Of a stretch of 64,000 nucleotides of DNA, positions 25,670 through 64,000 are shown one piece after another. The first letter of the stretch is position 1. Each line of letters begins with the position of its first letter. A program made the translations under genes and the position numbers. A model generated the notes under the pieces. The model worked only from the letters and a program-made list of their open reading frames with translations, was not told the origin of the DNA and ran no database searches. The stretch is from Lichina pygmaea (lineage: Eukaryota; Ascomycota; Lichinomycetes; Lichinales; Lichinaceae): the NCBI GenBank assembly GCA_963422465.1, contig OY730174.1:2816914-2880913 (forward strand), in the 5' to 3' direction.

Positions 25670-25758
25670 GGCCTGCAACGACTCGAACCTCCACGTGGTG
25701 CAGGCTGGGAACCTCGGGGCAGTCGATGGCGGGCGGCTTCCCAGGCTGCTCGTAGTCG
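25670..25758 (+). ncRNA. HDV-like self-cleaving ribozyme at the LINE-A 5' end
   Basis: The nested double pseudoknot of the HDV family can be drawn by hand. P1 pairs 25670-25676 (GGCCTGC) with 25700-25706 (GCAGGCT), 7 bp, the first being a G-U wobble at the cleavage site as in HDV. P2 pairs 25679-25686 with 25750-25758, 8 bp with one bulged U. P3 pairs 25687-25689 (ACC) with 25697-25699 (GGT) around a 7-nt loop TCCACGT, close to the HDV L3. After P1 comes TGGGAAC, similar to the HDV TGGGCAAC, able to form P1.1. P4 pairs about 25716-25725 with 25734-25742. J4/2 is AGGCTGC, placing the candidate catalytic C at 25746. The J4/2 adenosines common in the family are absent, which is the weakest point. 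HDV-like ribozymes that free the 5' end of the transcript are known from R2 and other LINEs. Confidence 0.65.
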
Positions 25759-26787
25759 CTGCACCGAGAGCTAATCAAGTCACCGGTCGAGCTGCTGGTG
25801 TTGCGGAGCGACGGGCCACCGGAGGTGTCGCGCAGGCACCCTGGACGCCCCCGTGAAACAGCTACAGCAGAACAGAGGACTGCGACCAAGCTTGGGAAAT
25901 GAAAACCACCCGACAGACAACTACCGTGTACGCTACGGCCCGAAGCCAGCCCCACAGCTGGTGGATGTGAAGTCTAGGCGTGTGATAGGGCACCTCTGGA
26001 GTAGTCGAGAGGAGTTCTCGTCAAGTCACCCTCCTAGCAGAGTCTCCAGCTAACGCGTGAGGATCTGCTAGGGGGGGGAGTGGCCTTGGCACCGCGGCGT
26101 TGTTAATCGAACGGGGACCACCTGTTAAAGAAGGAGAGTGGTCGTACGAGGAGACGTCGCCGCTCCAGTGCCTAAGGGCCGTGTGATAGCCAAAGTGCTG
26201 GCTTGATGGTTTTGCCTAAGGCCTTGCCACGAAGTCTCTTCGTACGATCCACAATCTGGGGCCGGGGGACTGGGTTATCCAGTGGGCCAACAGGTGCAAC
26301 CGAGGCCCCACAGGCGACAGCGGACCAAGGAAAACTCCTCCCTACTTGGTTAGTGGGCTGGAAAGGCGGCCCTGCAGGTGCTGGCACGGCCTGCAGGGTC
26401 CGTAAGGCCTGCGAGGCATGGTCGGCCTTCGTACGAGAGATCTGCGAAGGTAACGCGAAACAGTTAACAACTGCGAGGCGTGGCATATAATGGCAGTGAC
26501 GGAGGTAGGGCCTGGGCCTACTACGAGACTGTCTATATGGCCCGAGAGGACGGATGCGCATGCCGGTTCGTACGGAGTGCAGGCTTAGGCTGCAAACGAC
26601 GAGCTCAGGGAGCAAACTACAGTTGGAGCGTGGGCTCTGGGCTGGTGACCCAGCGCTCCGAAGCAGGATCCCAGGGGTGAGCACGTACGGCGGAGTGCAA
26701 GAGACCTCGGGACTGTGGGAAAGCGTGGTAGAGACCCTGTGGGGGGGTGCCAACTCTACACTATGTTCTGGCATAGTACGACTGTGG

Positions 26788-34163: not shown

Positions 34164-34478
34164 TCACTTCCGAGACAGATAAGCCTGCACTATGGCAAGT
34201 TGTTCAAAGAGTGTGTCGTGTGTTACCTTGTCAGTGGCTACATCCTCACAGAGGTTGTCCCAGGACATGTTCAGAGATTCCCAGGACACAGAGACACAAG
34301 ACCTTCCACGCTGAGTGCACACAGCACATTTCAACTTATCATCTTCTCCCAACATCTGGAAGCACGGATGACCACGAAGAACACAAAAGTCGCAGGGTGT
34401 ACGTGAAACAAAACCCTGATCACAGATTTGAGCAGCAAGCTGAGTTTGGCTAACAGTCGCACATGACTTTAGAGGCAT
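34164..34478 (-). CDS. Antisense Zn(II)2Cys6 ORF of E1
   Basis: Runs against the element, starting 43 bp from the 3' LTR. The 104-residue product has Cys at 29, 32, 39, 51, 54 and 61, giving C-X2-C-X6-C-X11-C-X2-C-X6-C. This is the spacing of the fungal GAL4-type binuclear zinc cluster, a sequence-specific DNA-binding domain. A Trp and an acidic, helix-prone stretch follow. The same protein is seen in E2 and E5, and a distant version in E3. Its function is not known; see findings. Confidence 0.6.
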   Translation of the reverse strand: MPLKSCATVSQTQLAAQICDQGFVSRTPCDFCVLRGHPCFQMLGEDDKLKCAVCTQRGRSCVSVSWESLNMSWDNLCEDVATDKVTHDTLFEQLAIVQAYLSRK

Positions 34479-34521
34479 GACTGGATTTCATCAAGATGAT
34501 GAAAGATGGAGAGAAGGATAG

Positions 34522-42084: not shown

Positions 42085-42400
42085 TCACTTCCAAGACAGA
42101 CAAGCCTGCACTGTGGCAAGTTGTTTGAAGAGTGCATCACGTGTTGCCTTGTCAGTGGCCACATCCTCACAGAGGTTGTCCCAGGACATGTTCAGAGATT
42201 CCCAGGACACAGAGACACAAGACCTTCCGCGCTGAGTGCATGCAGCACATTTCAACTTATCGTCTTCTCCCAGCATCTGGAAGCATGGACAACCATAGAG
42301 AACACAAAAGTCGCAGGGCGTACGTGAAACAAAACCCTGATTGCTGATTTGAGCAGTAAGCTGAGTTCAGCTAACAGTCGCACATGACTTTGGAGGTATG
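42085..42400 (-). CDS. Antisense Zn(II)2Cys6 ORF region of E2
   Basis: Counterpart of the antisense ORF in E1, at the same place between chromodomain and 3' LTR. The second half of the Cys cluster (CAACTQRGRSC) and the acidic tail are recognisable. It is part of a broken element. Confidence 0.45.
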
Positions 42401-42442: not shown

Positions 42443-43036
42443 TGTTACAACCCAGGAGGAACACAGTCTTTATATACTCACAGAAAGCAGTAGACAGGAT
42501 ACTGGACAGAAGTACCAGACAGTGTGGCATGGGAACCAGTCACATGACTGGCAAGACAAACCAGGGGGTGCTCGCCACAGCATGTATATGCACGAACAAG
42601 TGAGCAAAGTGAGCAGAGCTCACCCAGCTCACCGCAGCGTACATGAAAAGTGAGCAAAGTGAGCAGAGCTCACCCAGCTCACCGCAGCGTGCATGAAAAG
42701 TGAGCAAAGTGAGCAGAGCTCACCCAGCTTGCCGCAGCATGCATGAACTGTGAGCAAAGTGAGCAGAGCTCACTGTGCTCACAAACTGAGCACTATATAG
42801 TCCGGCGATAGTTCCCCTATGGAATGATTGTCTTCAACTCATGTTGTGATCCAGACAACTAGATCTACTTTAATACAATCTTTTTGTACGAAGCTGTTGA
42901 TCAGGTGTCTCCACCACCACGTTCCACCAAACCCCTTCGCACTCCTTGACACTCCTCTCCTGCGAGAACCAACCTGCCTTCCACCTCTCGCCCTAATCCT
43001 ATACTCGGATAGGACAGTACGGTACAGACCACAACA
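42443..43036 (+). repeat. E2 3' LTR
   Basis: 594 bp with four dyads GTGAGC-AGA-GCTCAC between about 42600 and 42770. The 66-bp length difference from the 5' LTR is mainly in the array. Confidence 0.9.
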
Positions 43037-44709
43037 CTTCCTTTCCTAAAGCCCATCTGGATATCTGGCAATAGTCCAGCTTCTTCTGCTATCTTGCTTA
43101 GTCTGGCTGCAGCAATAGCTTCCATCAGCTTGCCTGTTGTGTTTAGCAGAGCTATAGGGCGCCAGACTTTAGCTTGATTGTAGGTTCCCTTGCCAGGTTT
43201 CCTCAAGCAGACTGTTTTTGCACTCTTAAATCTTTCAGGGAAGTACTCTAGTTTCCAGCATGTTGAAGTCAGAATAGCTAGAGCTTGGCAGAACCTAGGC
43301 CCCAGAGCTCTCAGAAATCCATTTGGCAGCTTGTCTCTCCCTCCTGCTGTGAAAGGTTTCTTCTTGGCCAGAATTTGCTCCACTTCTTCACATGTTACCT
43401 CCTGGGAGAGCTGTATCTCAGAGATAGTCTGGGAGCTTTCTGAGCCTGGTTCTGGAACTAGAGCTTTTGGAAAGAACTGCTGTGAGAAGGCTTTAGTCTT
43501 TTCCTCAAAGGTTTTAGCTATTCCTTCTTGTGTTTCTAGGTCAGGAACCAGAGGAAGATCAGGAGTCTTGTTGGCTTTGGACTTTCCCCACTTTGCAAGC
43601 TTCCAGAACTTTGAAGAGCTGGCCAGCTCATGGATTTGGTGTCTGAAAGTGTTCTGTTTTCTATCTCTGACTGCCTTTTTCTTGAGCTTAGTTGCTTGCT
43701 CAAGTTCCTCTTGACTTGCTTGCTTTTTTTGTACTTTTCTTCTTACTCTTCTTTCCTCTTTAACCTTGATTTGGATCTCTTGATTCCACCAGAGAACTGA
43801 GTGGCCAGATTGCTTCTGGAGCTGTGTGGATTTGCTTGCTATTTCTTGGAGAAAGTTGTCAAGATACTCCAAGTACTCATCCACTTCATATTTGTCTTGG
43901 AAGTGGAAGGGCAGGTGTAGCTTCTCACACTCTACTCTTGCAAGGTTTGAGTCCAGTGTTCTCCAGTTTCTTTCTGGTTTCCAGATTTTCCTTGGAGGAT
44001 CCAGGTCCAGGCAGGTTAGTACAGGTCTGTGGTCAGACCCATGAAAGAACTGAAGAGCCACTTTAGAGAAAATCAGAGAGTTAGAAAGAGAAGAAGAAAT
44101 AAAAGACAGATCAATAGAAGAATATAGTTTTTCAGAAAGAGATCTTGCTCTGGTAGGGGTGAAAGGTGCAATAGCTAAATCCAGATTTAAATCTTCCATT
44201 AGGTCTTGAAACTTGTTTGCAGTCTCAGAGTACAGTCTTCTTTTCTTTGACCAGTCTGGGTGGTGAAGATTTGAGTCTGTGAGAAGAATATGTTGTCCTT
44301 GTTCTTGTAAAGCATTTTGGAGTAAACAGAGAAGAGCTTCTGATGTCTCTGTGTAGTTTTCTTGACTTGATGGGGTGAAGTAGAGATTATGTACCCAAAG
44401 AGAAGTAGGAGAGTTTTCCAAGTAGATTTCAAGAGAAACAAAGTCTTTATTCCAGAAGGTAGGATGAAGAGAAGAGAGTTTCAGATTTTTATTAGTAAGA
44501 AAAAGTGTTCTGCCAATCTCTGAACAGTAGAGAGGAAGAAAGGAAGAGAAAACAGTTGAAGTGCTTGTTTCTAGGTGAGGGTTTTTCCAGGACTCTTGAA
44601 GTGCAATAATGTCCACCTCTTGGAGAGCTGAGGTTGCTAGCAGTAGCTCTTGGACTGATTGGCTTTTTTGCACATTATACTGGAGAAGTGTCAGCTTTGT
44701 GTCTTTCAT
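43037..44709 (-). pseudogene. LINE-B ORF2, N-terminal part: APE endonuclease and start of RT
   Basis: This part is open without interruption from the Met at 44709 until the E2 insertion. The first ~235 residues are an apurinic-type endonuclease: LLQYNVQKS, the catalytic Glu in LQESW, TDSNLHHPDW, SSIDLSF and the terminal SDHRPV. A basic linker (RRVRRKVQKKQAS) follows, then the start of RT with KPFTAGGRDKLPNGFL, TVCLRKPGKG and RPIALLNTTGKL, stopping within MGFRKG. All catalytic residues of the endonuclease appear to be kept. Confidence 0.85.
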
Positions 44710-46773: not shown

Positions 46774-46865
46774 TGTTAAGGCCTAGGCCGGAACAGCCTA
46801 GGTAAGCAAGGGAGGAGTGTTAGTCATACAGAACAACATCTGACTGAACCAGTGGACAAGCAAGA

Positions 46866-47278
46866 TGTTAAGGCCCAGGCCGGAACGGCTGAGCTGACCG
46901 AAGCGAGTGTACAGAGGTACACGGAACAATGTTCACCTGACCCGGTGGACAAGGTGGACGATGTGTAACCAGCTCGTCCAGCTCGTCCACAGGAACAATG
47001 TTCACCCGACCCGGTGGACAAGGTGGACGATGTGTAACCAGCTCGTCCAGCTTGTCCACGCAGAAAGCTGATACCCCTCGGGAGGACCCCCCCCCCTCAG
47101 GCTCCTGTATATAAGAACCCAGATAGCCGGAGAGAATAGCTCTCCAGGCTGAACGCACATTACGAGCGACAATAGCAAGAGAGTTACCCCACTTGCTATT
47201 CATCTATTGAGTCCCTGCCCTCCTCAGTCAAAGACAGGACCACCCACATTCTGTGTGAATGTGGACTGGCCTTTAACA
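46866..47278 (+). repeat. E3 5' LTR
   Basis: 413 bp, ends TGTTAA...TTAACA, a perfect 6-bp terminal inverted repeat. It holds two copies of a ~66-bp unit (46920-47060) with an imperfect inverted repeat of GTGGAC and GTCCAC. A TGTATATAAG box at about 47105 is a plausible TATA element. Confidence 0.92.
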
Positions 47279-50200
47279 GTTTCAGCCTCTAACACATAGG
47301 ACACCGGCTCAATACGATGGCAGATCCACGCAGCCCTACCCCTTCGCAGGCAGGCCAACCTCGGGCTGCGCCTCAGGCGCAAGCCCAGGAACCACCTGTC
47401 CCTACCACCCTCACCTTACCTCCAAAGCCGTTGAAGGTAGGTACACCGAAGAGGTACGATGGATCACGAGGGGGATTGGAATTATTCTTCTCTCAGCTTG
47501 AGCTTTACTACGGATTCAACACCGCACAATTCCCTACGGAACAGGAGAAGGTGCTGTTCACAGCTTCCTACCTGGACGGACCGACATTTGCCTGGTTCAA
47601 TGTCTACCTACAAGACTTCCTCGACAACAAGGAAGACCCCTCTAGCATGGAGACCATGACACGGCAGATCATTGGGAGATTCTCTACCTTCAAGACCCAG
47701 ATGAAGAAGACCTTCGGGGTCATTGATGAAGAACGAGATGCGGAACGAAAGCTCCAAGCACTACGGCAGACAGGGTCAGCATCAGACTTCGCGGCGAAGT
47801 TCCAACAGCTGTCAGTGAGGACACAATGGGGAGACAGTGCCTTGACGGCACTATTCTACCAAGCTCTCAAGGAACAAGTCAAGGATGACATCGCACGAGG
47901 AGACCGACCCACCGACCTTGAGGATATGATTGACACAGCGGTACGCATCGACGACCGACAGTTCGAACAAGAACTCGAGAAGCGAGGCAAGCATGCAAGG
48001 CCATGGGGTAAAAAGACAGCGCCAGCACAAGACAAGTACGGCTTGACACCCATGGAGATCGATGCAACAACACCACAGGCAACAAAGAAGAAAGAAACAC
48101 GGAAGTGTTACAATTGCCAGAAGGTAGGACACCTCGCAGCCAACTGCCAAAGCAAGAAGAAGAAAGAAGGCAAGGGTAAGCAGTTGAATGCCACCGGTGC
48201 CTGGAAAGGCAAGGGTATTCAGGAGCCACCGAGAGCCCCCAGAGGCATGCTACCCATGAACCGGTCAGAAGCAACACTCCTCAGACAGGAGGACAATCTC
48301 AGACAGCACATCGAAAGACTGGAGAACAATCTGCAGAGGTCACTGGAGGACCTGCACACAATCCAAGACCAGATCAATAAGGTTCATTGGGAGGATGACC
48401 TGATCTCCGAATTCGACACAACAGACTACAAGATTGACATAACCGGCATGCCACCAATTCCCGAGACACCACTACTCCGACAACAGGATGCGACCTTGTC
48501 GGAGGACGGCGAAGCAAGAGTGACACGATGGGTGGACGACACCATCAGCATCTCACAGCCCCGAGACATCGCAGCGCAAGTGGACCTTCACCAGGCTACG
48601 ACACCAGCCTGCGGACGTCCTTATTGGAAAGGATGTGAGGACCACCACTGCAAGGAACATCTCCTAGAGAAAAGGAGAAGGCACTACTTCCCTGGCCCAG
48701 AATACCACAAGAAAGCCTGGAGCATCAAGCACCAGCTAAGCCAGCAAGGGAAAGAACGCGATGATTGCGGAGAAGACGCATGGGAGCTATGCTTCACCGA
48801 AAAATGCGAAAGACACGTGACAGAACGCCAGGCTCAGGGCCTTGGTTGTTCAAAAAACTAGCAGTGCTCTTCAAATCCGGAGTCGGAAGAGCAGGCAAGA
48901 CAACACTCCGGAGAGAAGGGGTCGAGCAGAGCCTCGACGCGACAGCCTGCAGTCCGCATTTTCGCATCAAGATGAGAGTCAACAGGCATCTGACAAACGC
49001 CATGATCGACTCTGGAGCTACTGGCAACTTCATGTCAGAAAGTTTCGCCAGGAAGCACAAGATCCCGACTCAGGAAAAGAGGAATCCATACCAACTAACG
49101 GTAGTGGACGGGACACCACTCTCCAACGACCAAGGACGAGTGACGAAGGAGACCAAGAACCTACGACTGTGTGTCGACAGTACGACAATCGGATCAGAAG
49201 AATTCGACTTGGTCCAGATACCACATGAAGTTATATTGGGTCTTCCGTGGTTGGAAAGTCAAAACCCAAGGATCGACTGGAAAAGAAGGCACCTAGTCTT
49301 TCCGAAGAGGAGTCTGGCAACTCGAGCAGAGCCAGAGAAAGTGAGAATCAAAGAGATCTCATATGCAGGGTGGAAGAAGCACCACCGGCGAGGGCGAGCC
49401 TATGTGGCTTGGATGAAGCCCTGAAACCATCAACTTTGCACCACGCATGACGCCATGGGCGAGACTCAGGCACCGCAGCTGCCAAGTGAGTATAAAGACT
49501 ACCAGGAGATGTTTGGTGAGGAAGTGGTCGCGACGCTACCAGAACACCAAGAGTGGGATCACGAAATTCCGCTGGAAGACAGAAAGAAACCCACACATAG
49601 CCCTATTTACGCTCTATCAGCAAAGGAGCTTGAGGCCTTAAGAGATTACCTGGACGAGAACCTAGCGAAAGGGTTCATAAGACCTTCAACATCACCGGCC
49701 GGATACCCGATATTGTTTGTGCCAAAGAAAGACGGCAAATTACGACTGTGTGTCGACTACCGGCAGCTCAATGCGATCACGATTAAGAATCGCTACCCGC
49801 TACCGTTAATATCGGAAATCCAGGACTGAATCCAAGGAGCCAAGTGGTTTACCAAATTCAACATCCGAGGCGCTTTCAACCTGGTTAGGATGAAAGATGG
49901 CGAAGAATGGAAGACAGTCTTTCGTACGAGGTACGGGCATTACGAGTATACTGTTATGCCATTCGGCCTTACGAATGCACCGGCGACGTTCCAATCACTC
50001 ATTAACGCCATCCTCCGACAATACCTGGATATATTTGTTACCGCTTATATCGACGATGTCTTGGTCTACACCAATGGAACCCTGGAGGAGCACAGACAGC
50101 ATGTCAAGAAGATCCTACATGCGCTCCAAGAAGCAGGAATGAGGTTACGCCTTGATAAGAGCGTCTTCCACGTGAAAGAAGTAGAATATTTGGGGTCGAT

Positions 50201-52227
50201 CCTGACAACAGAAGGAATCCGCATGGACGATACAAAGATCACGGCAGTACGAGACTGGCCAACACCCAAAAACCTCAAAGAAGTCCAATCCTTCCTGGGA
50301 TTTGCGAACTTCTACCGACGATTCATCAAGGAGTACTCGAGGACAGCAGCACCCTTGACTGAACTAACAAAGAAGGAAGAAACCTTCACATGGGGGAACA
50401 GCCAAGAGAGAGCGTTCCAGGAGCTGAAAGAGAAGTTCACCTCCGCACCCATACTGGCATCATTTGATCCCGGACGGTGGATCATCATGGAGACGGATGC
50501 CTCGGACCAAGCACTTGGATCTTGCTTGTGTCAACCAGACGCCGAAAACTGCCTACACCCTGTCGCATACTGATCGAGAAAGTTCTCTGGCCCAGAACTC
50601 AGGTACGATGTTCACGACAAGGAGTTGTTAGCGATTGTCGACGCATTCCAGGAGTGGAGACCTTACCTGGAAGGAGCAAAGTACACAGTGGACGTGTACT
50701 CAGACCACAAGAATTTGGCTTACTTCACGACGACGAAGAAGCTAAACAGACGACAAGTCCGATGGGCGGAGCTTTTAGCTTCATACGACTTCCAGATCTT
50801 CTATTGAAAAGGATCAGAAAACGCACGAGCGGACGCGCTTAGCAGGCGGCCTGATATGACGACAGACGACACGACAGAAGAGCGCCCAATCCTAGCGACA
50901 AAAGGACAAACTCTGGTCTATGCTCAACCTCAGTTAGCGAAAACTGAAGAAATGGGTGCACTCCTGACCCTAGGCCACAACGTTGCGGCCACAAACAAGG
51001 AAGAAGTGCCAGAGAGCGCACAAGAGGACGTGATTTGACAACATCATGATGGACCTCTACACGGACATCCTGGGCGAGACAAGACCCTGGAAAAGATCCG
51101 GAGACGTTACCACTTCAACGGAATGAAGCGGAAAGTGATGGAATTTATTCGCAACTGCGAAGAGTGTGCGAAAAACAAACCATCACGCCACAAACCCTAT
51201 GGAGAGAGTCAACAAATGGACCTCCCAGAAGCGGCTTGGGATACTATCACAATAGATTTTGTGGTGAAGCTGCCGAGGTCAGAGGACCCGGTAACAAAGG
51301 TGAAATATGACAGTATCTTGGTGGTTGTTGACAAACTCACCAAATACGCTCACCTGATCCTGTGGCGAGAGACAGGAACAGCGAGCGAACTCGCCAATGT
51401 CCTACTCAAAGAATTGGTTAGCCAGCGAGGGCTACCCACAAAGATTATCTCAGATCGAGACAAACTCTTCACCTCGAAATTCTGGAACACGTGGACAAGA
51501 CAGCTAGGGATAGACACGAGGATGTCTACTGCCTACCATCCACAAACAGACAGACAAACTGAGAGAACAAACCAGACGATGGAACAGTATCTACGCCACT
51601 ACGTCAACCACCGACAGGATGATTGGGTAGAACTGCTACCAATGGCTCAGTTTGCGTACAACGATCAGCAACACAGCGTGACAGGCATGACGCCGTTCTT
51701 TGCGAACTACGGCAGAAACCCCCGCTGGGAAGTGATGGCGGCTGGAAGTGGCACTTCAACAAACATCGAAAAACTCACTGCTATGCATGAGGAAATGAAG
51801 ACTGCAATTGAATCCGCACAAAAGACAACAAGCCACCGCCTAAACAGCAAAAGGTTGAAGGGACCAACCCTGGAGAGGGGGGATAAGGTCTATTTGTCAA
51901 CAAAAAACCTGCGCTCGAAGCGACTGAGCAAAAAGCTGGATCATGTACGAATCGGACTGTTTGAGATTGAGAAGCGCACTGGAGAAATCAACTACCGACT
52001 GAGACTGCCAAAAAAGGCACGGATACACCGAGTATTCCATGTCTCGCTGCTCGAGCCAGCACCCAGCGACGCAGCAATCGAAACAGAATAGCACTTCGAG
52101 GATGACGAAGAAGAGCACGATGTCGAAAGAATCCTAGACAGCCGGAGAAGCGGACGGAAAATCAAATACCTGGTCAAGTGGTTAGGGTATGACAATGAGG
52201 AGAACTCGTGGGAACCCACCGAGAACT

Positions 52228-52758
52228 TCAGCCCTGCGACAAACAAGAAACTGCGGAGTTTCCACCGACAAAACCCGCAGAAGCCAGGATCGATGGAGAC
52301 AAAGGCCCGAGAGAAGCCAAAGCCTCCGAAGAGAAGAAGTCCTCCAAAGGCGGCGGGGACTCCACACGCGTAGCCTCCTGCTCGAGATCCTCCTGATCCT
52401 CGATCGCAGCAAGCTCACGCTTGATGGCCTCACCCTCCTTCTTGGACAACACACCCAACTGACGATGGAGACGAAGTTTGCGAGGAAGGAGAACAGACTC
52501 CTGCTCCTCGATCTCCTTCAGTTGAGCCTCGAGCTGAGTGCGCTCAAGCTCCATCTTCTCCCACTCCGACTCCGCGAGATGGAGATCGCAACGGCGACCC
52601 TTCTCAAGGCACCGACCGCAAAATGTGGACTCTGAACTGACGACACACTTGGCACGGTCACGACGACATGCGCTGCATGAAACTTTGGATACCTTGCCCA
52701 TCTTGCCAACACGAGAACCGAGGACTCCACGATGATTACAACAAGATGTCCGGGTCAT
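52228..52758 (-). CDS. Antisense Zn(II)2Cys6 ORF of E3
   Basis: 176 residues, reading against the element and starting 53 bp inside the 3' LTR. Cys at 28, 31, 38, 47, 50 and 57 gives C-X2-C-X6-C-X8-C-X2-C-X6-C, an exact GAL4-type Zn2Cys6 pattern with basic residues between (CRRDRAKC). Residues ~60-130 are rich in Glu, Leu and Lys and look coiled-coil forming, as expected for a dimerisation segment; an acidic/Pro/Ser-rich tail follows, of the kind seen in activation domains. Its 3' end overlaps the sense chromodomain ORF tail to tail by about 145 bp. The frame is open throughout. I do not know a described retrotransposon protein of this type. Confidence 0.65.
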   Translation of the reverse strand: MTRTSCCNHRGVLGSRVGKMGKVSKVSCSACRRDRAKCVVSSESTFCGRCLEKGRRCDLHLAESEWEKMELERTQLEAQLKEIEEQESVLLPRKLRLHRQLGVLSKKEGEAIKRELAAIEDQEDLEQEATRVESPPPLEDFFSSEALASLGPLSPSILASAGFVGGNSAVSCLSQG

Positions 52759-52810
52759 GGTAAGAGAAGCGAGAGGATCTGGGGACAGAACCTTTGGAGG
52801 GAGGGGATAG

Positions 52811-53223
52811 TGTTAAGGCCCAGGCCGGAACGGCTGAGCTGACCGAAGCGAGTGTACAGAGGTACACGGAACAATGTTCACCCGACCTGGTGGACAAGGT
52901 GGACGATGTGTAACCAGCTCGTCCAGCTCGTCCACAGGAACAATGTTCACCCGACCCGGTGGACGAGGTGGACGATGTGTAACCAGCTTGTCCAGCTCGT
53001 CCACGCAGAAAGCTGATACCCCTCGGGAGGACCCCCCCCCCTCAGGCTCCTGTATATAAGAACCCAGATAGCTGGAGAGAATAGCTCTCCAGGCTGAACG
53101 CACATTACAAGCGACAATAGCAAGAGAGTTACCCCACTTGCTATTCATCTATTGAGTCCCTGCCCTCCTCGGTCGAAGACAGGACCACCCACATTCTGTG
53201 TGAACGTGGACTGGCCTTTAACA
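52811..53223 (+). repeat. E3 3' LTR
   Basis: 413 bp, the same length as the 5' LTR, with the same two-unit array. Confidence 0.92.
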
Positions 53224-53228
53224 CAAGA

Positions 53229-53596
53229 GCTAAGTGAGGAGCTCATCCGGTGGACAAGCAGGAGCTAAGTGAGGAGCTTGTCCGGTGGACGAGCAGAAGC
53301 TAAGTGAGGAGCTTGTCCAGTGGACAAGCAGAAGCTAAGCGAGGAGCTTGTCCACACAAAAGGATGATACCCCTCGGAGAAGACCTCCCCCCCTAGGGCA
53401 TCTGTATAAAGACCACCCAAAGAGCCCGGAGGGATTAGCTCTCCAGACTGAACACACATACACACATCGTACTGAGACAATAGTACAGAGAGAGTTCTCT
53501 ATCTGTCTATTCCTCTATCAAGTCCCTGTCTAGAATCCACCCTGTGAAGCAACAGACTATACTAGTTTCTGGGTGAACCCAGTCCGACCTTTAACA
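53229..53596 (+). repeat. E4 5' LTR, main piece (first 92 bp at 46774-46865)
   Basis: The LTR begins TGTTAAGG at 46774 and ends TTTAACA at 53596; E3 sits in it. Its upstream part (53229-53355) has about four copies of a ~35-bp unit with the dyad CTTGTCC-AGT-GGACAAG or close variants. The TGTATAAAGACC box at about 53402 may be the TATA element. Confidence 0.85.
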
Positions 53597-54043
53597 GTTT
53601 CAGCCTCTAACATATAGGACACTGACTTGATACGATAGTGGATCCACAAAGCCCTACCCCTTCCCAGGTGGCTCAAGCCCAGGCTGCTCAGGCAGCTCAG
53701 GCTCAGGCTGTCCAGGCAGCACCTATTGTTAACCTACCCCTGAAGTCCTTGAAGGTAGGTGCCCTGAAGAGGTACAATAGATCCAGGGGAGGACTGGAGT
53801 TGTTCTTCTCACAACTGGAGCTCTACTATAGGTTCAACACAGCCCAGTTCCTGACAGACCAGGAGAAGGTGCTATTCACAGCCTCCTACCTGGAAGGACC
53901 AGTCTTCACTTGGTTCAACGTCTACTTAAGAGATTACCTAGACAATCAGGCAGACCCCAAGAAGCAAGAAGACAATACCTGACAGGTTATAGGAAGCTTG
54001 AAAACTTTTAAGACAGCTATGAGAAAGATGTTTGGGATTCTTG

Positions 54044-54681
54044 TGTTGCAGTCTGTACTGTGCTGTCCTAACCGAGTATAGGATTAAGGGTGAGATGTGG
54101 AAGGTGGGTTGGTTCTTACAGGAGAGGAGTGTCAAGGAGTGCGAAGGGGTTTGGTGGAACATAGTGGTGGTGACACCTGATCAATAGCTTTGTACAAAAG
54201 GATTGTATTGAAGTAGATCTAGTTGTCTGGATCACAACATGAGTTGAAGACAATTGTTCCATAAGGGAACTATTGCCAGACTATATAGTACTCAGTCTGT
54301 GAGCTAGGTGAGCTCTGCTCACTTTGCTCACTGTTCATGCACACTGCAGTGAGCTGGGTGAGCTCTGCTCACTTTGCTCACTTGTTCATGCACACTGCGG
54401 TGAGCTGGGCAAGCTCTGCTCACTTTGCTCACTTGTTCATGCATGCTGCGGTGAGCTGGGCAAACTCTGCTCACTTTGCTCACTTGTTCATGCATGCTGT
54501 GGCAAGCTGGGCAAGCTCTGCTCACTTTGCTCACACATATGCATACTGCGGCAAGCAACCCCTGGTCAGTCTCGCTGGTCACGTGACTGCTTCCAGTGTT
54601 ATGCAGCCTGGTACTTCTGTCGAGTATCCTGTCTGCTGCTTTCTGTGAGTATAAAGACTGTGTTCCTCCTGGGTTATAACA
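54044..54681 (-). repeat. E5 3' LTR
   Basis: 638 bp. It has an expanded array of about five units (54305-54545), many with one arm of the dyad altered. Confidence 0.9.
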
Positions 54682-54724
54682 CTATCCTCCTCTCCATCTT
54701 TCATCATCTTGATGAAACCTGGTC

Positions 54725-55129
54725 ATGTCTCCGAAGTCATGTGCGACTGTTAGCCAAACTCAGCTTGCTGCTCAAATCTGCAATCAGGGTTTTGTTTCAC
54801 GTACACCCTGCAACTTTTGTGTTCTTTGTGGTTGTCTGTGCTTCCAGATGCCAGGGGAAGATGATAAGTTGAAATGTGCTGCGTGCACTCAGCACAGGAG
54901 GTCTAGTGTCTTGGTGTCCTGGGAATCTCTGAACATATCCCAGGACAACCTTTGTGAGAATATGGCTGCTGAAGAGGCAACACATGACACACTCTTTGAA
55001 CAACTTGCCACAGTGCAAGTTTGTCTGTCTCAGAAACAGAAGGTGTTGGAAGGTGCTGAAGTCTGTGCAAGGCAGAAGCTTCAGTGTCTGGTGAAAGAGA
55101 TAGAGTCGGATAGTGAGGATTTGACTTGA
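54725..55129 (+). CDS. Antisense Zn(II)2Cys6 ORF of E5
   Basis: 134 residues, the longest family I version, starting 43 bp inside the 3' LTR exactly as in E1. It has the same N-terminus (KSCATVSQTQLAAQIC), the Cys cluster region and then a helix-prone tail (FEQLATVQVCLSQKQK) ending acidic (EIESDSEDLT). It is part of a broken element. Confidence 0.5.
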   Translation: MSPKSCATVSQTQLAAQICNQGFVSRTPCNFCVLCGCLCFQMPGEDDKLKCAACTQHRRSSVLVSWESLNISQDNLCENMAAEEATHDTLFEQLATVQVCLSQKQKVLEGAEVCARQKLQCLVKEIESDSEDLT

Positions 55130-58100
55130 TCAGTCATTGACATATCCCTCCTGCAGGCCGAACTGTTCAGTCCTGCTCCTGCTGAAACTGTCGCAGAAGA
55201 AGCTGGCAGTTCGCAAGGTTCTTGAGTGGTTCCCAGGTAATCTCTGAGTCTGGGTATCCTTTCCACTTGACAAAATATTGCTAACCTTTCCTAGCCAGAA
55301 TCTGTTCAACTTTGAACTCTTGTTCTTCTTCAGGTTGATAATGAAATGTTTCCTGTAAGGGTATGCTCTGGTTGGCTGGTTCAATCATCAATATATGAAA
55401 GTTTGGATAGACTCTGGCATCCCTTGGTAGTTATATCTTGATGTTGACTGGTCCTGTTTTCTCTTCAACTGAAAATAGTCTGACCTTGATGTTGTCAAGT
55501 TTCTTTATCTTTGGCTTTTTTGTTTTCCAATTTTTTGTGAGGAGGTAGACTTTATCCCCCTTCTTTAGCTGAGGTGCCATTTTTGATTTTTTGTCTATTT
55601 GACACTATTTTTTCTGAGATCTCTTGAAGGTAGTGCCTCATCATCATGTGTGTTTGTTGTAGGAGCTTGTCATGTTGGAGTACTTTCTCCATGTTTGGTG
55701 AAGCTCTGCTTGGCATTCTGATGTTTGTGTGTCATCCAAAATTAGCAAAGAATAGTGATTCCTTTGTTGAGTCTGATCTGTGCTGGTTGATTGCCAGCTG
55801 TGCCACTGGTAATAACTATACCCAATTACTGTGGGTCTGGTTGATGTAATACTGCAAATAAGTCTCCAGGACTTGGTTTGCTCACTCTGTCTGGCTGTCA
55901 GTTTGTGGGTGGTAGGCTGTAGACATCTTGGGTTTTGTTCCCATGGCTGCACTGATTGTTTTCTAGTAGTTGGATGTGAAGAGTTTGTCTCTGTCAGTAA
56001 TGACTGTGATTGGAACTCTGTGGTCCCTGACTAATCTGTCCAGTAAGAGGTGTCCCAACTGTTCTGCTGTGTGAGTTTCCTTAAATAGTACTACTATTAG
56101 GTATTTTATGAATCTGTCCACAATCACTATAATCAAGTTGTAGTTGATTCCTGTGACTAGGTCTTTGGACTTGGGTAGCTTTGTGATGAAGTCTATTGAC
56201 ATGTCTTCCCAAGAGCCTCTTGGTATCATGTTTGGGTGTCCTTCTCTATATGGCTTATGTCTTCCGTGTTTGTTTTTCTGGCACAGTAGATATTTGCTGA
56301 TGTAGCTTGTGACATGTTGTCAGAGATTGATGACATTGTTCCCTGCCTGTTAGATAAGGTCTGTGGTTTTAGTGATTCCTGGGTGACTATGTGCTGGATT
56401 ATCATAGTAGTTTCTTATTAGTTCTTCAGTATCTTCTGCTGTGAGCTTGTTGATCTGTGGTTGAGGTACCAGGTTTCCTTACTGGTCCTGCTGTAAGATC
56501 ATTCCTTGGTGTTCATCATCTTCCATGTGGTCTTTTTGTTGGCTTAGTGCATCTGCTCTCCTATTGTCTTGTCCGGGGGTGTACAAGATCTTGAACTTGT
56601 GTTGCCCTAGGAGTTCAGCCTATCTGACTTGCTGTCTGTTCAGCTTCTTGGTTGTTGTGAACGTTGTCAGATTCTTGTGGTCTGTGAGAATAGTGAGTTC
56701 AGAACTGCTTTCTGTGTACACTCTCCAGTGTTCAAGTGTGTTGACGACTGCCAATAGCTCTTTGTTATAGATATTATAGTTCTGTTCCACTTGTGTTATT
56801 TTGTGTGAGTAGTAGGCAACTGGGTGCCACTTGCTGTCTGCCTGTTGGCATAGACATGCTCCCACTGCTTGATCTGAAGTGTCTGTCTTGATTTGTGTTG
56901 GTTGGCCTGTTTTGAAGTTGAGGAGAACTGGTTCCTTGGTGCAAGTGTCCTTGAGCTGTTGGAATACTTTTTGTTGTCTCTCCATCCACCAGTACTCCAT
57001 GTTCTTCTTTGTGAGTTCTGTCAGTGGTGTTGCCATCTGTGAGTAGTTCTTAATAAACTGTCAGTTAAAGTTGGCAAATCCCAGGAAGGCTTGTACTTTC
57101 TTGACTAATGTCAGTGTTGGCTATTGCTGAATCATGTTGATCTTCTCAGAGTCAATCTTGATCCCTTCAATCCCTATAATGTATCTGAGGAATTCAACTT
57201 CCAGTTTGTTGAACTCGCATTTCTTCAGGTTAAGCTTGAGCTCTACCTCTTGTAGGTATCGTAGAACATCCTTCACATGTTTGGTATATTCCTGTTACAT
57301 GTTCGAGTAGACAAGAATGTTGTCCAGGTAGGTGATAGCTGTTTAGTCCAGGTGTGCTCTGATGATGTTGTTGATCAATGCTTGACATGTTGCTGGTGTG
57401 TTTGTGAGTCCGAATAGCATAACCAGATACATGTAGTGTCTGTATCAGGTTCTGAAAGCTGTCTTCCATTCTTCTTTTTTTTTCATGCTTATCAGGTTGT
57501 ATACTTCTTTCAAGTCCAGCTTGGTGAAGATTGTAGCTTGGCTGATCCTGTCTTGCAATTTGTTCACATTTGGCAACAGATATCAGTTTTTGATAGTAAT
57601 ATTGTTGAGTTTCCTGTAATCCACACAAAGTCGAAGACTTCTGTCTTTCTTTGGTGCAAATAGTATCGGGTATCCTGCTGGTGATTGAGATTCTTGAATG
57701 AAACTCTTTTTCAGGTTTTCCTCCAGGTACTCACAAAGTACTTGGAGCTCTTTCTCTGATAACTGGTAAATTGGTCTAAATCCTGGCTCTGTCCCTGGTT
57801 GCAACTTGATCTTATAATCCCAAGGTTGGTGCTTAGACAACACTGCTGTTGTTGTCTCTTCCTGAAAGAGGTTATCATACCCAGGTCAGTACTCTTCAGG
57901 AATATCCTGAGTAGCCAACTTGACAATATCAAGGTGGATCCTTTCAGCATAGTGTCCGGTAACTATTTCTATTGGCTGCATCTTATGGTAGACTAGCTCT
58001 GTCTGTCTATTTGCCATCGCAAGCTGGTAGGGCTGCTGCTTGTGTTTCTTTCCAGTGCTGAGAGTGTTGTAGAGTTGTCTTGAAATGTAGTTTCCACTGG

Positions 58101-59743
58101 CTCCAGAATCAACAAGTGTGTATGTCCGTACTGGCATGTTGGTGTGTAGTGACACAGGCAATCGCAGGTGCTTTGTGTTGCTAGGGGTCATGTGGTTAAG
58201 CTCCTGATGTCACCCCTTGACAAGAGAGTTCAGTCTTTTCCTGATTGAAGTGTTTTTCTGCTGACTGGGCAATGGGTCCAGCTATTCCCATCAGTCCTGA
58301 GAAATCTGTTTATGAATTTGTTTTGCTGATGCTTGTCACATCCGGGTTTGAGGTAGTACTGCCAATTGTTGATGTAGCAGTTGTTGTTATTGCCTTGCTG
58401 TAGGAACATGAGGTGTTTGTGCTAATCATGTGTGTGCCCAGGGAATACGGTGTGTTTGTGTTTGTCCCAAAGGTAGATCTCACACACATCCTTCTCACAA
58501 TTGACTCAATGCTTGTGGCAGGTGGTGTGGTAGGGTGAATGTTCTCTGTACCTTTGTAGTTGTTTGTTGTAGGTGCAGTAGTGTTTTGTGCAGAACCTCC
58601 ACTGTAGTTCACTGTGCCGTAAGTTTTGTGAGTCTATACTGTAAGCATAGCTTCCTTGTGGTATTTCTTCTTTGATAGACATGGGTTTGTCTCAGTCCCT
58701 ATCAGAGGTGGTTAAGAGCTCCTGTCCCTTGTTCTGATCTGTCTGTTCTAGTAGGTCCTTGCCTCCTGATGTTGCCAGTTGGTGGGCTGCTTCAAGTGTC
58801 TGATCATAATCATCCTATTGTTTGAGAGATAGCTAAGTCTCTCCTGGTGGGTTCTCTGAGTTGATGACATTCCAGTCTCCGTCAAGCGTATTAAGTTGCT
58901 GTCAGTGCACCTTGTTCTTTGAACAAGTCTTTCACCATGTGGCCTAGCTTACCACAGGCATAGCACTTCAGTGCTTTCCCTTTTTTGTTGTTCCTTCCCT
59001 TTGTGAACCTTCCTCTGTGGTGGACTACATCTAGTTCCATGGGTGTATAGCCATATGGATCATGTGGTGGTGTCTTGTTAGGTGGCTTGTAGTGGTTGCT
59101 CACATGCCATGTGGGGTGGCTGTATCCTCTGTCGTGGTGTTTCTCCATCACTCACTTGAATAACTTGTTGTTGATGTTGATTGCTTGTGTGATGAGTTTA
59201 TCTAGTGTGTTGACTGCTTGTCTGTCAAAGGTGATCTTGTCCTTCATGTTTTCCTTGAGTCCACGTCAGTACATAACTATCAGGGTGTTGTCATCCCAGT
59301 CAGTCAGTACTGAGTATTGTTTGAACTGTGGTATACTCTGTGGCTGAGTGTTGTTGCTTGATGTGCTGGATCATTTGTATAGTCACTTTGTCTTTGTTAG
59401 ATAGTCCAAGGATCTTTTTGATCTCCTCCTTGAATCATGTCTATTTTGTCATCTATTCTGATGTGCTGTCATAGTCTCTGTTTCCTGAGAGATGTTTGTT
59501 GACATAGGGTTTGACCTATCAGTGGGCATTGCCTCTCATGTAAGTGGTTGTGAAGAGTGGCCACTTCTCTTTAGGCAGTCTTGCCTCAGGTTGGAATTGA
59601 AAGTAGACTTGAAGTTGCATGAGCCAGTTGTTGACCTTGTTCCTTTCACCATAGAACAGGTCTGGCTTGGTGACACTAATCTTTCCATCTGGGAAGTTGG
59701 GGTTGGTTGCTCCTGAGGTACTCATCCTTGAGGGTCTTCAAAG

Positions 59744-60390
59744 TGTTGCGGTCTGTACCGTGCTGTTCTAACCAAGTATAGGATTAAGGGTGAGATGTGG
59801 AAGGCAGGTTGGTTCTCACAGGAGAGGAGTGTCAAGAAGTGCGAAGGGGTTTGGTGGAATGTGGTGGTGGTGACACCTGATCAATAGCTTTGTACAAAAG
59901 GATTGTATTGAAGTAGATCTAGTTGTCTGGATCACAACATGAGTTGAAGACAATTGTTCCATAAGGGAACTATCACCAGACTATATAGTACTCAGTCTGT
60001 GAGCTGGGTGAGCTCTGCTCACTTGGCTCACTTTGCTCACTGTTCATGCACACTGCAGTGAGCTGGGTGAGCTCTGCTCACTTTGCTCACTTGTTCATGC
60101 ACACTGCGGTGAGCTGGGCAAGCTCTGCTCACTTTGCTCACTTGTTCATGCATGCTGCAGCAAGCTGGGCAAGCTCTGCTGACTTTGCTCACTTGTTCAT
60201 GCATGCTGTGGTGAGCTGGGCAAGCTCTGCTCACTTTGCTCACGTATATGCATGCTGCGGTGAGCAACCCCTGGTCAGTCTCACCGGTCACGTGACTGCT
60301 TCCCGTGTTATGCAGTCTGGTACTTCTGTCCAGTATCCTGTCTGCTGCTTTCTGTGAGTATAAAGACTGTGTTCCTCCTGGGTTGTAACA
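59744..60390 (-). repeat. E5 5' LTR
   Basis: 647 bp, the longest LTR of the family here, with an array of about five units (60000-60245). Confidence 0.9.
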
Positions 60391-62910
60391 TCTTGATAAG
60401 GAAAGGGATGTGGAACAAAAGCTCCAAGCACTGTGGCAAACTGGATCAGCATCAGAGTTGACAGCGAAGTTCAAACAACTAGTAGTGAGCACCCAGTGGG
60501 GGGACAGTGCACTAACAGCACTATTCTACCAAGGTCTCAAGGAACAAGTCAAGGATGAAATTGTGTGAGGAGACTGACCAACCGAGCTCTACAAAATAAT
60601 TAAGACTGCAGCTCACATCAACAACTGACAGTTTGAGAGAGAGCTTGAGAAGTGAGGCAAGTAGACAAAACTATAGGTGAAGAAAAAACCAACACCTGCC
60701 AAAGATAACTACAGCTTGGTACCCATAGAAATTGATGTGGCAGAACTACAAAAGAAGAAGACATAGAAGTGTTACAACTGTCAGAAAGTGGGCCACCTTG
60801 CAGTGAACTGCAGGAGCAAGAAGAAGAACAAGAAGAGTAAAGGGAAGCAGTTGAACATCACGAGTGCCTGGAAAGACAGAGAGACAGAGAAGCCCCAGAG
60901 AGCTCCCCAAGACACACTGCCCCACAATCACCGTGAGGTAGCACTCCTCAGAGAGAAGGATAATCTCCGACAAGACACTGAAGAACTTGAGAACATGCTT
61001 CAAGAAACCTTGGATCACCTCAACAAGGTCTAAAGGAAGGTTGACAGAATCCACTAGAAGGAAGACCTGATCTCCAAGTTCAACACAACTGGCTACATGG
61101 AGGAACAGGTTGACAACAAGAAAGCCCAGCCACCACCAGTCCCTGACAAACCTGTCCTTCAATGACAGGACACAACCCTATCAGAAATAAGGGAGATGCA
61201 AGTGTCATGATGGGTTGACAATACCCTCAGCATCACACAGGTCAGAGACATCACCACACAAGTGGACCTACAGCAGGCTACAACAGCAGCCTGCGGACAA
61301 TCTTATTGGAAGGTGTGCGAAGACAACTACTGCAAGGAACACCTTCTAGAGAAAATAAAGATGTGGTTCCCAGAGTCTGAGGTGGAAGCATGATAGAATA
61401 TGCACATCCAAAGGGTCAACCCTGAACAAGATGATTGCAACAAAGACCTGTGGGAATGATGCCTCACCACATGATGCAAACAACATGTGGTAGAGTGTCA
61501 GGCGCAGGGTCTAGGCAGCTCAAAAAACTAGCAGTGCTCTTCAAAACTAGGGTTGGAAGAGCAGGCAAGACAACACCCTGGAAGGAAGAAGTCAAGCCAA
61601 GCCTTGACACAACAGCCTGCAGCCCACACTTTCACATCAAGATCAGAGTTAATAGGTGGTTGGCTAAGGCCATGATCAACTCTGGTGTGACTGGTAACTT
61701 CATGTCAGAAAGCTTTGCCAGAAAAAACAAGGTTCCAGTCCAAGACAAGAAAGACTTTTACTAATTGACAGTAGTGGACAGAACACCACTCTCCAAAGAC
61801 AAGAGACAAGTGATGAAGGAGACCAAGAGTCTGAGACTGAGTGTCTATAGCACAACAATCAGAACAGAGGAATTCAACTTGGTCTGAATACCACACAAAG
61901 TTATATTAGGACTTCCGTGGTTGGAAAAATAAAACCCAAGGATTGACTGGAAAAGAAGGTAACTAGTCTCTCCGGATAAGACACTAGTCAAGTCAGAACC
62001 AGGAGTGATAATTAAAGAAATCTCACTGACACAGTGGAAGAAATACCACTAGTGCAGGGAGATCTGTGTGGCCTGGATGAAACCCCACACACAACAACTT
62101 TGCACTACGCAAGATGCTGTAGGCAAGACTCAGGCACTGCAGTTGCCAAGTGAGTATAAAGAATACTAGGAGATGTTCAAAGAAACAGTGATCACAACAC
62201 TACCAGAACATCAGGAGTGGGACTATAAGATTCTGCTGGAAGACAGAAAAAAACCCACACATAGCCCTATCTACACTCTGTCAGCAAAAGAGCTTGAGGC
62301 CCTGAGAGACTACCTGGACAAGAACCTAGTGAAAGAGTTCATAAGACTTTTAACATCACCAGCTGGATACCTGATATTATTTGTGCCAAAGAAAGATAGC
62401 AAACTTTGACTGTGTGTTGATTATCAGCAGCTAAATGTGATCACAGTAAAAAACCACTACCCACTGCTATTGATATCAGAAATCCAAGACTGGATCCAAG
62501 AAGCCAAATAGTTTACCAAGTTCAATATTCAAGGTGCTTTCAACCTGGTTAGGATGAAAGATGGCAAAGAATAGAAGACAGCTTTTTGTACAAGGTACAG
62601 GCACTACAAGTATACCATGATGCTATTCAGCCTTATAAATACACTGGTGATATTCCAATCACTTATTAACACTGTCCTCTGACAATACCTGGATATATTT
62701 GTCACTGCTTACATTGATGATGTCTTGGTATACACCAACAGAACCTTGGAGAAGTATAAACAGCATGTCAAGAAGATCCTACATGCACTCCAGAAAGCAG
62801 GCATAAGATTATGTCTTGATAAAAGTGTTTTCCACACAAAAGAAGTGGAATATTTAGGGTTGATCCTAACAACAGAAGGAATCTGAATAGACAACATAAA
62901 GATGGCAGCA

Positions 62911-62999
62911 GGCCTGCAACGACTCGAACCTCCACGTGGTGCAGGCTGGGAATCTCGGGGCAGTCGATGGCGGGCGGCTTCCCAGGCTGCTCGTAGTCG
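62911..62999 (+). ncRNA. HDV-like ribozyme at the LINE-C 5' end
   Basis: The same fold as at LINE-A, with all of P1, P2, P3, L3, P4 and J4/2 identical; the only change in the 89 nt is one C to T in the joiner after P1.1. The candidate catalytic C is at 62987. Confidence 0.62.
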
Positions 63000-64000
63000 C
63001 TGCACTGAGAGCTAATCAAGTAACCGGTCAAGCTGCTGGTGTTGCGGAGTGACAGGCCACCGGAGGTGTCGCGCAGGCACCCTGGACACCCCCGTGAAAC
63101 AGCTACAGCAGAACAGAGGACTGCGACCAAGCTTGGGAGATGAAAACCACCTGACAGACAACTACCGTGTACGCTACGGCCTGAAGCCAGCCCCACAGCT
63201 GGTGGATGTGAAGTCTAGGCGTCTGATAGGGCACCTGTGGAGTAGTCGAGAGGAGTTCTTGTCACATCACCCTCCTAGCAGAGTCTCCAGCTAACACGTG
63301 AGGATCTGCTAGGGGGGGAGTGGTCTTGGCACTGCGGTGTTGTTAATCAAACACAGACCACCTGTTAAAGAAGGAGAGTGGTTGTACAAGGAGATGTCGC
63401 CGCTCCAGTGCCTAAGGGCTGTGTGATAGCCAAAGTGCTGGCTTGATGGTTTTGCCTAAGGCCTTGCCATGAAGTCTCTTCGTACAATCCACAATCTGGG
63501 GCCAGGGGACTGGGTTATCCAGTGGGCCAACAGGTGCAACCGGGGCCCCACAGGCGACAGCGGACCAAGGAGAACTCCTCCCTACTTGGTTAGTGGGCTG
63601 GAAAGGCAGCCCTGCAGGTGCTGGCACAGCCTGCAGGGTCCGTAAGGCCTGCGAGGCATGGTCGGCCTTTGTACAAGAGATCTGCGAAGGTAACACAAAA
63701 CAGTTAACAACTGCGAGGTGTGGTATATAATGGCAGTGACGGAGGTAGGGCCTGGGCCTACTACGAGACTGTCTATATAGCCCAAGAGGACAGATGCGCA
63801 TGCCGGTTTGTACAGAGTGCAGGCTTAGGCTGCAAACAACAAGCTCAGGGAGCAAACTACAGTTGGAGCGTGGGCTCTGGGCTGGTGACCCAGCGCTCCG
63901 AAGCAGGATCCCAGGGGTGAGCACGTACGGCGGAGTGCAAGAGACCTCGGGACTGTGGGAAAGCGTGGTAGAGACTCTGTGGGGGGGTGCCAACTCTACA
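62911..64000 (+). mobile_element. LINE-C, second copy of the ribozyme-headed LINE, 5' part
   Basis: The 1090 bases to the window edge align without large gaps with 25670-26760 of LINE-A, differing mostly by transitions. The element starts at the same base as LINE-A but in unrelated flanking DNA, the reverse transcriptase region of E4. So the 5' module belongs to a mobile family and its first base is fixed. Whether this copy also passes into the LINE-B-like RT body cannot be seen; the window ends 28 bp before the corresponding junction. Confidence 0.85.

Follow-up and report, generated by a model that had tools for sequence, protein, structure and literature searches.

The DNA analysed is a stretch of 64,000 nucleotides from contig OY730174.1 of Lichina pygmaea, called the window in the following. 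It contains a Gypsy retrotransposon of a family named F1-A, the ends of which were found by comparison of its LTR pair: the 5′ LTR of 413 bp covers 46866..47278 (+) and the 3′ LTR 52811..53223 (+), with 10 differences in 413 bp, all of the CpG type. A 5-bp target duplication CAAGA flanks the element (left 46861..46865, right 53224-53228). Inside, Pfam profiles mark gag with a CCHC knuckle at 47317..48861 (+) (Retrotrans_gag, zf-CCHC) and the pieces of pol at 48765..52373 (+), comprising protease, RT, RNase H, integrase and chromodomain (RVP_2, RVT_1, RT_RNaseH_2, rve, SH3_Tf2-1, Chromo). The pol region is broken into several frames and ends with the sense stop TAG at 52371-52373; its chromodomain (PF00385) scores 55.3 bits in the sense piece 52092-52370. 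The order RT-RNaseH-IN with a C-terminal chromodomain is that of a chromovirus, and a chromodomain is also present in elements 1 and 2 of a second family of the window, F2.

The F1-A element was inserted into an LTR resembling those of a subfamily F1-B, which is thereby split into a first part at 46775..46865 (+) and a rest at 53224-53596. The U3 parts of this LTR are 86-91% identical to two F1-B loci and 69-73% to two F1-A loci, and its R-U5 has 75-78% identity to all four. Repeat and LTR matches in 46775-64000 indicate nested insertions, the F1-A element lying in the F1-B-like LTR and an F2 element (~54043-60307) in the F1-B-like element; another repeat starts at ~62911 and occurs also at 25670-26371. 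The antisense gene of the F1-B parent itself was not seen in a search with window positions 62304-63800, which matched mostly another repeat. Two other kinds of open frame were noticed in the window: a 111-aa frame runs antisense inside each F1-A LTR (46868-47203 and 52813-53148, both (-)), upstream of the antisense gene, and a 602-aa frame at 42901-44709 (-) resembles, by eye, a LINE endonuclease/reverse transcriptase.

The antisense gene of the F1-A element, with 176 aa and an ATG start, is located at 52228..52758 (-) and was recognised from the ORF list, from its genome copies and from codon-position divergence. An earlier note on this DNA had placed a 176-codon antisense frame between the chromodomain and the 3′ LTR. 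Frame and ATG are present; the frame does not lie wholly between pol and LTR, because the sense pol extends to its TAG at 52371-52373. About 48 C-terminal antisense codons lie over the 3′ end of pol, including the last part of the chromodomain, and codons 1-128 are situated beyond the pol stop. The start was rightly described as near the LTR, the ATG being 52 bp from the 3′ LTR start at 52811. The six cysteines of residues 28-57 (52588..52677 (-)) have exactly the GAL4-type spacing claimed, C-x2-C-x6-C-x8-C-x2-C-x6-C. They are followed by a coiled-coil segment at about residues 62-125 (52384..52575 (-)), predicted by eye from conserved columns. The acidic tail, also part of the earlier description, was confirmed with a net charge of -9 over the last 60 residues (52231..52410 (-)), which overlap the 3′ end of pol.

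Comparison with the Zn_clus profile (PF00172) had been proposed as a check. A match to the antisense ORF was indeed obtained by Pfam search at residues 27-58 (E 0.0099), but with 16.4 bits it stays under the cut-off of 21 and is suggestive only. The cut-off was reached by no sequence tested, the best relative being P0181 with 20.6 bits, and at E up to 1 there was no Zn_clus match in three F2 pieces of the window, P0088 and P0131. As membership pattern for Zn(II)2Cys6 proteins we applied C-x2-C-x6-C-x(5-14)-C-x2-C-x(6-7)-C. It is found exactly in 12 of 16 chosen sequences, consisting of representatives of the four families F1-A, F1-B, F2 and F3, which all carry it, and 12 database hits, two of which (P0190 and P0192) have E > 1e-3. 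Among the exceptions, P0178 and P0192 are without the first half, in P0187 one of the spacings is shorter, and P0190 has lost cysteines. The last 60 residues are negatively charged in 16/16 of these sequences (weakest in P0192, -1). Searched against the PDB, the profile of the F2 family gave weak matches, with coiled-coil chains at a best E of 0.008 and GAL4 at E 0.13; the F1 profile matched neither coiled-coil chains nor GAL4. A coil after the cysteine cluster of the antisense protein is likely, although the PDB comparison is a weak test of it.

In the genome searched (32.47 Mb, 8 contigs), at least 150 matches to the antisense ORF were scored among 291 candidate places. Among these 150, 61 belong to F1-A (85-100% identical, 53/61 without stop) and 89 are more diverged, with 56-69% identity. 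Fifty F1-A loci and 20 of the diverged type (F1-B) were read, and a 12-codon insertion is present in the 20 F1-B loci read. Near one F1-B copy, a second diverged partial copy of the antisense gene was observed on the opposite strand (L035:707-988, 48% over 94 aligned positions). That the gene is antisense to gag-pol and 3′ of pol in many copies of the family is true for the loci read, and this placement is established inside this genome only.

Variation inside F1-A consists mainly of C-to-T changes at CpG, with 12.6% versus 0.9-1.2% in other contexts (e.g. loci L001-L030 and L051-L070). Classical RIP is directed at CpA, unlike the CpG-type decay of these copies. Stops occur in 3/50 F1-A ORFs versus 43/50 pol stretches, the latter number falling to 11/50 outside seven stop-rich columns. 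The antisense gene has 0 CGA codon columns versus nine in about 370 codons of pol, and because such a column is missing CpG decay spares it from stops. We rejected the counts of intact copies as evidence for selection, since this difference in CGA columns accounts for the gap without selection. Within-family dN/dS was rejected as well, F1-A variation being mainly CpG decay. For the same reason the dN/dS of young copies, for which a value near 1 had been named in advance as speaking against the gene, is uninformative.

Three more Gypsy elements of the window, at ~28.6-35.0, 36.6-43.0 and 54.0-60.3 kb (the last one reversed), have an antisense ORF at the same place. They form the F2 family, with the pattern C-x2-C-x6-C-x11-C-x2-C-x6-C in better-kept copies, as read in translation. 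The gene of element 1 (34167..34487 (-)) is cut by a stop and that of element 2 (42088..42366 (-)) by stops; in element 3, where pol is on the minus strand, the gene is found at 54725..55126 (+) and its sixth Cys reads Ser. Genome-wide, at least 150 matches to the F2 antisense gene were scored among 504 candidates. A search with the relative P0131 revealed a sister family of F2, named F3; in the three loci translated, its gene runs antisense to integrase frames. The cysteine pattern, for which the earlier note had asked in other copies, is thus conserved both in other copies and in another lineage (F2/F3). Comparison of the F1 and F2 family profiles gave a probability of 95.5 and an E of 1.4e-8 over 96 columns, and the relative P0186 has matches in both lineages, to F2/F3 places with a best E of 6.5e-11 and, more weakly, to F1-A places with a best E of 4e-6. 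Judged by this profile similarity, the F1 and F2 antisense genes are homologous. Searches of a protein database delivered 17 hits at E up to 1e-3 and, in separate searches at E up to 1, at least 86 (8000 candidates scored) and 106 hits. The set of 106 includes relatives at 26-57% identity, some of them from jgi or ncbi sources. With P0167 as single query, no relative was detected in viral contigs or in bacterial/archaeal genome contigs.

Purifying selection, another check that had been proposed, became visible in the comparison of subfamilies. In 15 pairs (5 of the 50 A loci with 3 of the 20 B loci), dN/dS between F1-A and F1-B is 0.15-0.21 in codons 1-128, outside the pol overlap, at a dS of 0.94-1.27; in the pol-overlap codons of the same pairs it is 0.35-0.48. 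Differences by codon position are, for example, 27/20/54 (p 2e-5). Between F2 and F3 (10 pairs, 5 of the 12 F2 loci with 2 of the 3 F3 loci), dN/dS across 166 codons, leaving out stop codons, is 0.15-0.21; in codons 1-130 it is 0.09-0.13, there at a saturated dS of 1.8-2.4. Third-position bias in four chosen pairs has binomial p values of 4e-7 to 3e-5. A chance open frame, or a frame held open by coding on the sense strand, would be conceivable for the roughly 48 C-terminal codons that overlap pol, and frame 1 of the pol strand, which shares the antisense wobble position, also has a dN/dS of 0.40 (A/B) and 0.19 (F2/F3). However, this pol-strand frame has 5 and 4 stops in the compared pairs, the antisense frame alone is without stop in a six-frame test (two pairs, A/B and F2/F3), and codons 1-128 are past the pol stop, so that the probability of this explanation is practically nil. 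Because of the 150 scored matches in 291 places and the third-position-biased divergence between subfamilies, the ORF is more than chance: it is a gene under coding selection. Another reading is that the antisense transcript and not the protein matters, by dsRNA or lncRNA regulation, the ORF being incidental; for Blumeria hordei, 823 lncRNAs from the antisense strand of TEs are reported (PMC10648671). Against this reading stand two independent family pairs, both with an excess of third-position differences and a low dN/dS, and the cysteine pattern kept in many distant relatives, and we regard it as very improbable.

In the copies examined, the U3 region between the antisense ATG and the sense TATA contains arrays of inverted half-sites. 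In the 3′ LTR of the F1-A element, a 69-bp unit repeated 2.0 times with inverted GTGGACGA half-sites covers 52868..53004 (+), with the same array at 46923-47059 in the 5′ LTR; the sense TATA box follows at 53053..53058 (+) (LTR position 242). The tandem units determined by Tandem Repeats Finder in the window are 69 bp in F1-A, 35 bp in the F1-B-like LTR and 51 bp in F2. In nine copies tested (three A, three B, one F2, two F3), inverted-repeat arms (at least 8) hold 34-103 bases of U3, which was reached by 0/300 shuffles for seven copies and by 1/300 for two. The R-U5 of the three F2/F3 copies has no inverted repeat, and that of the six F1 copies a modest one (reached by 1-5/300 shuffles).

The arrays carry lineage-specific cores, namely GTGGACGA in F1-A and F1-B, GTGAGC in F2 and CGAGAC in F3. 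With these cores, which were picked after inspecting the sequences, GTGGACGA is present in 49/50 A, 19/20 B, 0/12 F2 and 0/3 F3 loci, GTGAGC in 11/12 F2 loci and in no other family, and CGAGAC in 3/3 F3 (mean 6.3) and 8/12 F2 loci (mean 0.7). The whole window has GTGGACGA 14 times versus 1.9 expected, with eight in the F1-A LTRs, one in the F1-B-like LTR and five elsewhere. In copies of F1-A and F2, direct half-site pairs occur at a spacing of 9 bp. The half-site cores lack the CGG triplet that characterises GAL4-type sites, a point against regulation of the LTR by the antisense protein. An antisense TATA box is located 75-79 bp before the ATG in 15/15 F2/F3 loci. For F1, none was detected in six loci examined, apart from the sense TATATA itself, which in 3/6 matches on the antisense strand because it is self-complementary. 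Expression of the antisense gene from the LTR is only suggested by this arrangement.

In 70/70 F1 loci the type of the ORF equals the type of the U3. In the aligned 3′ 1.6 kb of pol that were read (1645 columns), all 40 near-fixed A/B differences fall into the last 213 columns and the first 1432 have none; the p-distance of pol is 0.033 within A, 0.041 within B and 0.038 between them (last 350 columns excluded). Among the best 40 genome matches to the RT region, 20 adjoin an A ORF, 19 a B-like ORF and one neither. For F2 and F3, an alignment of the 3′ part of pol with the antisense gene (12 F2 and 3 F3 loci) has seven near-fixed differences among its first 1200 columns, against 124 among the final 702 columns, a part that includes the antisense gene. 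Two pairs of families therefore share pol, in the part read, and differ in the 3′ block. Gene and promoter appear to have been exchanged between elements as one block, and template switching in reverse transcription would produce such an exchange (discussed in PMC10787394, section 8). The F1-A element of the window, inside an LTR whose U3 is F1-B-like and whose R-U5 is 75-78% identical to both types, fits an F1-B parent donating its 3′ block to an F1-A backbone. As ORF and U3 are adjacent, their joint travel requires no functional coupling. Such coupling is not proven, because adjacency by itself could account for the joint inheritance and the core is common to F1-A and F1-B.

We consider it fairly probable that the antisense ORF is a functional accessory gene, the dimeric DNA-binding product of which regulates its own LTR via the U3 array, gene and target being exchanged together as one 3′ block that recombines between elements. 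The product would be a small dimeric protein in which a six-cysteine zinc cluster is combined with a coiled coil and a tail that is acidic and hydrophobic. Its most likely target would be the array of inverted half-sites in the U3 of the same element, through which it would regulate the LTR promoter and probably also the divergent antisense promoter of its own gene. That the protein binds zinc and DNA, forms dimers and recognises this target is inferred from sequence, as are the direction of regulation and antisense transcription. Four features would be explained by a regulator of the own LTR: a cysteine cluster under selection, an array placed between two promoters, cores that differ by lineage, and the inheritance of gene and U3 together. 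We favour activation or anti-silencing of the LTR over repression, because the array, in the manner of an activating site, precedes the sense TATA and because the tail is acidic.

Host transcription factors might instead use the U3 arrays, and the antisense protein might act otherwise, for example in nuclear import or chromatin tethering of the preintegration complex. Such a situation could be compared with crapaud of Podospora, which has a diverged U3, a conserved R-U5 and a largely shared internal region, and for which recombination in reverse transcription is discussed (PMC10787394, sections 8 and 12). Unlike the elements described here, crapaud is drawn in the figure legend with gag and pol ORFs only, and the word 'antisense' occurs 0 times in the main text of that paper (PMC10787394); U3 diversification on a shared backbone is thus seen where no antisense gene is drawn. 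By themselves, however, arrays for host factors explain neither the pairing of cores with ORF types nor the divergent F2/F3 arrangement, and we judge this explanation quite unlikely.

The main competing explanation, a self-repressor or immunity module, has the same anatomy as a regulator of the own LTR. Here the protein would bind the U3 array and shut off sense transcription as a control of copy number, and block-swapped elements would escape resident repression, as phages do by exchanging immunity regions. In line with this, the 3′ block differs on a common backbone in two pairs, the F2 and F3 cores differ, and antisense retroviral proteins such as HTLV-1 HBZ are described as nuclear proteins with a critical part in the life cycle of the virus (PMC11963269). 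The array, however, lies upstream of the TATA box and leaves the box itself free, the tail is acidic, and the GTGGACGA core is common to F1-A and F1-B, with the consequence that this swap need not alter specificity; repression as the main function is therefore unlikely in our view. More tentatively than the regulation of the own LTR, fungal chromoviruses may possess an exchangeable regulator-plus-operator block, made up of the antisense gene for a dimeric zinc-cluster protein and a matching palindromic array in U3, set between divergent promoters; its swap onto an otherwise identical backbone would create a new regulatory or immunity specificity. This would be the retrotransposon counterpart of immunity-region exchange in phages and of the coevolution of VANC with its motifs.

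Both plant elements and Boty are known to carry antisense genes in this place (PMC7264820 section 5, PMC8365987, PMC4227169, PMC5987419), and their function is described there as unknown (PMC7264820, section 5). The earlier remark that no such gene was recognised in known fungal Gypsy elements is not supported in view of Boty of Botrytis and Sclerotinia, which carries the antisense gene brtn, cited as Zhao et al. 2011, Virology 417:248 (PMC7264820, PMC8365987). Like the F1 and F2 genes, brtn is an additional antisense gene in a fungal Gypsy element that also has gag, RT, IN and a chromodomain (PMC4227169, PMC7264820). The passages available on brtn, which was compared by description only, mention no zinc cluster and no U3 array. 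Antisense genes in fungal Gypsy elements are accordingly not new since 2011. New here are the tandem inverted half-sites that the copies examined have in U3 between the antisense gene and the sense TATA, with their lineage-specific cores. The available parts of PMC3248453, on LTR elements in fungi, and of PMC11432805 contain nothing like an antisense gene with a U3 array. In the literature covered, which leaves out most subscription papers, no fungal Gypsy element was met that combines a Zn2Cys6 antisense gene with an array in U3; this is weak evidence for novelty.

The plant aORFs (Grande gene23, RIRE2, Retand TRP28 proteins) are likewise antisense between pol and 3′ LTR, with a suspected nuclear or DNA-binding role (PMC7264820, PMC11963269), and DNA binding is presumed for the antisense proteins of Retand (PMC11963269). 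Retand, unlike the present elements, belongs to a non-chromovirus lineage and has a pol-LTR region of 2.9-6.6 kb; TRP28 (PF04195) is matched by neither F1 nor F2 proteins in Pfam at E up to 1. VANDAL elements are no retrotransposons, and HTLV-1 HBZ is a bZIP protein of a retrovirus and, unlike the product of our gene, does not have a six-cysteine cluster. VANC, the anti-silencing protein of Arabidopsis VANDAL, is similar in being a TE-encoded DNA-binding protein whose motifs form tandem repeats in the non-coding DNA of the TE itself and change together with it (PMC5735166); its binding was shown experimentally, whereas binding by the antisense protein is predicted. HBZ is comparable as the product of an antisense retroviral gene with a nuclear role (PMC11963269), and the HTLV antisense promoter is located in the 3′ LTR (PMC7264820).

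The present elements bear on the role that antisense genes play in LTR retrotransposons: the product has a recognisable DNA-binding pattern and a candidate target in the same element. Since the natural recombinants hold the pol that was read constant while gene and target change, this role is directly testable by binding and reporter assays. If the regulation of the own LTR is true, some short zinc-cluster proteins in fungal gene catalogues would be transposon genes. If the more tentative regulator-plus-operator reading also holds, many unexplained short zinc-cluster ORFs in fungal genomes may turn out to be such genes.
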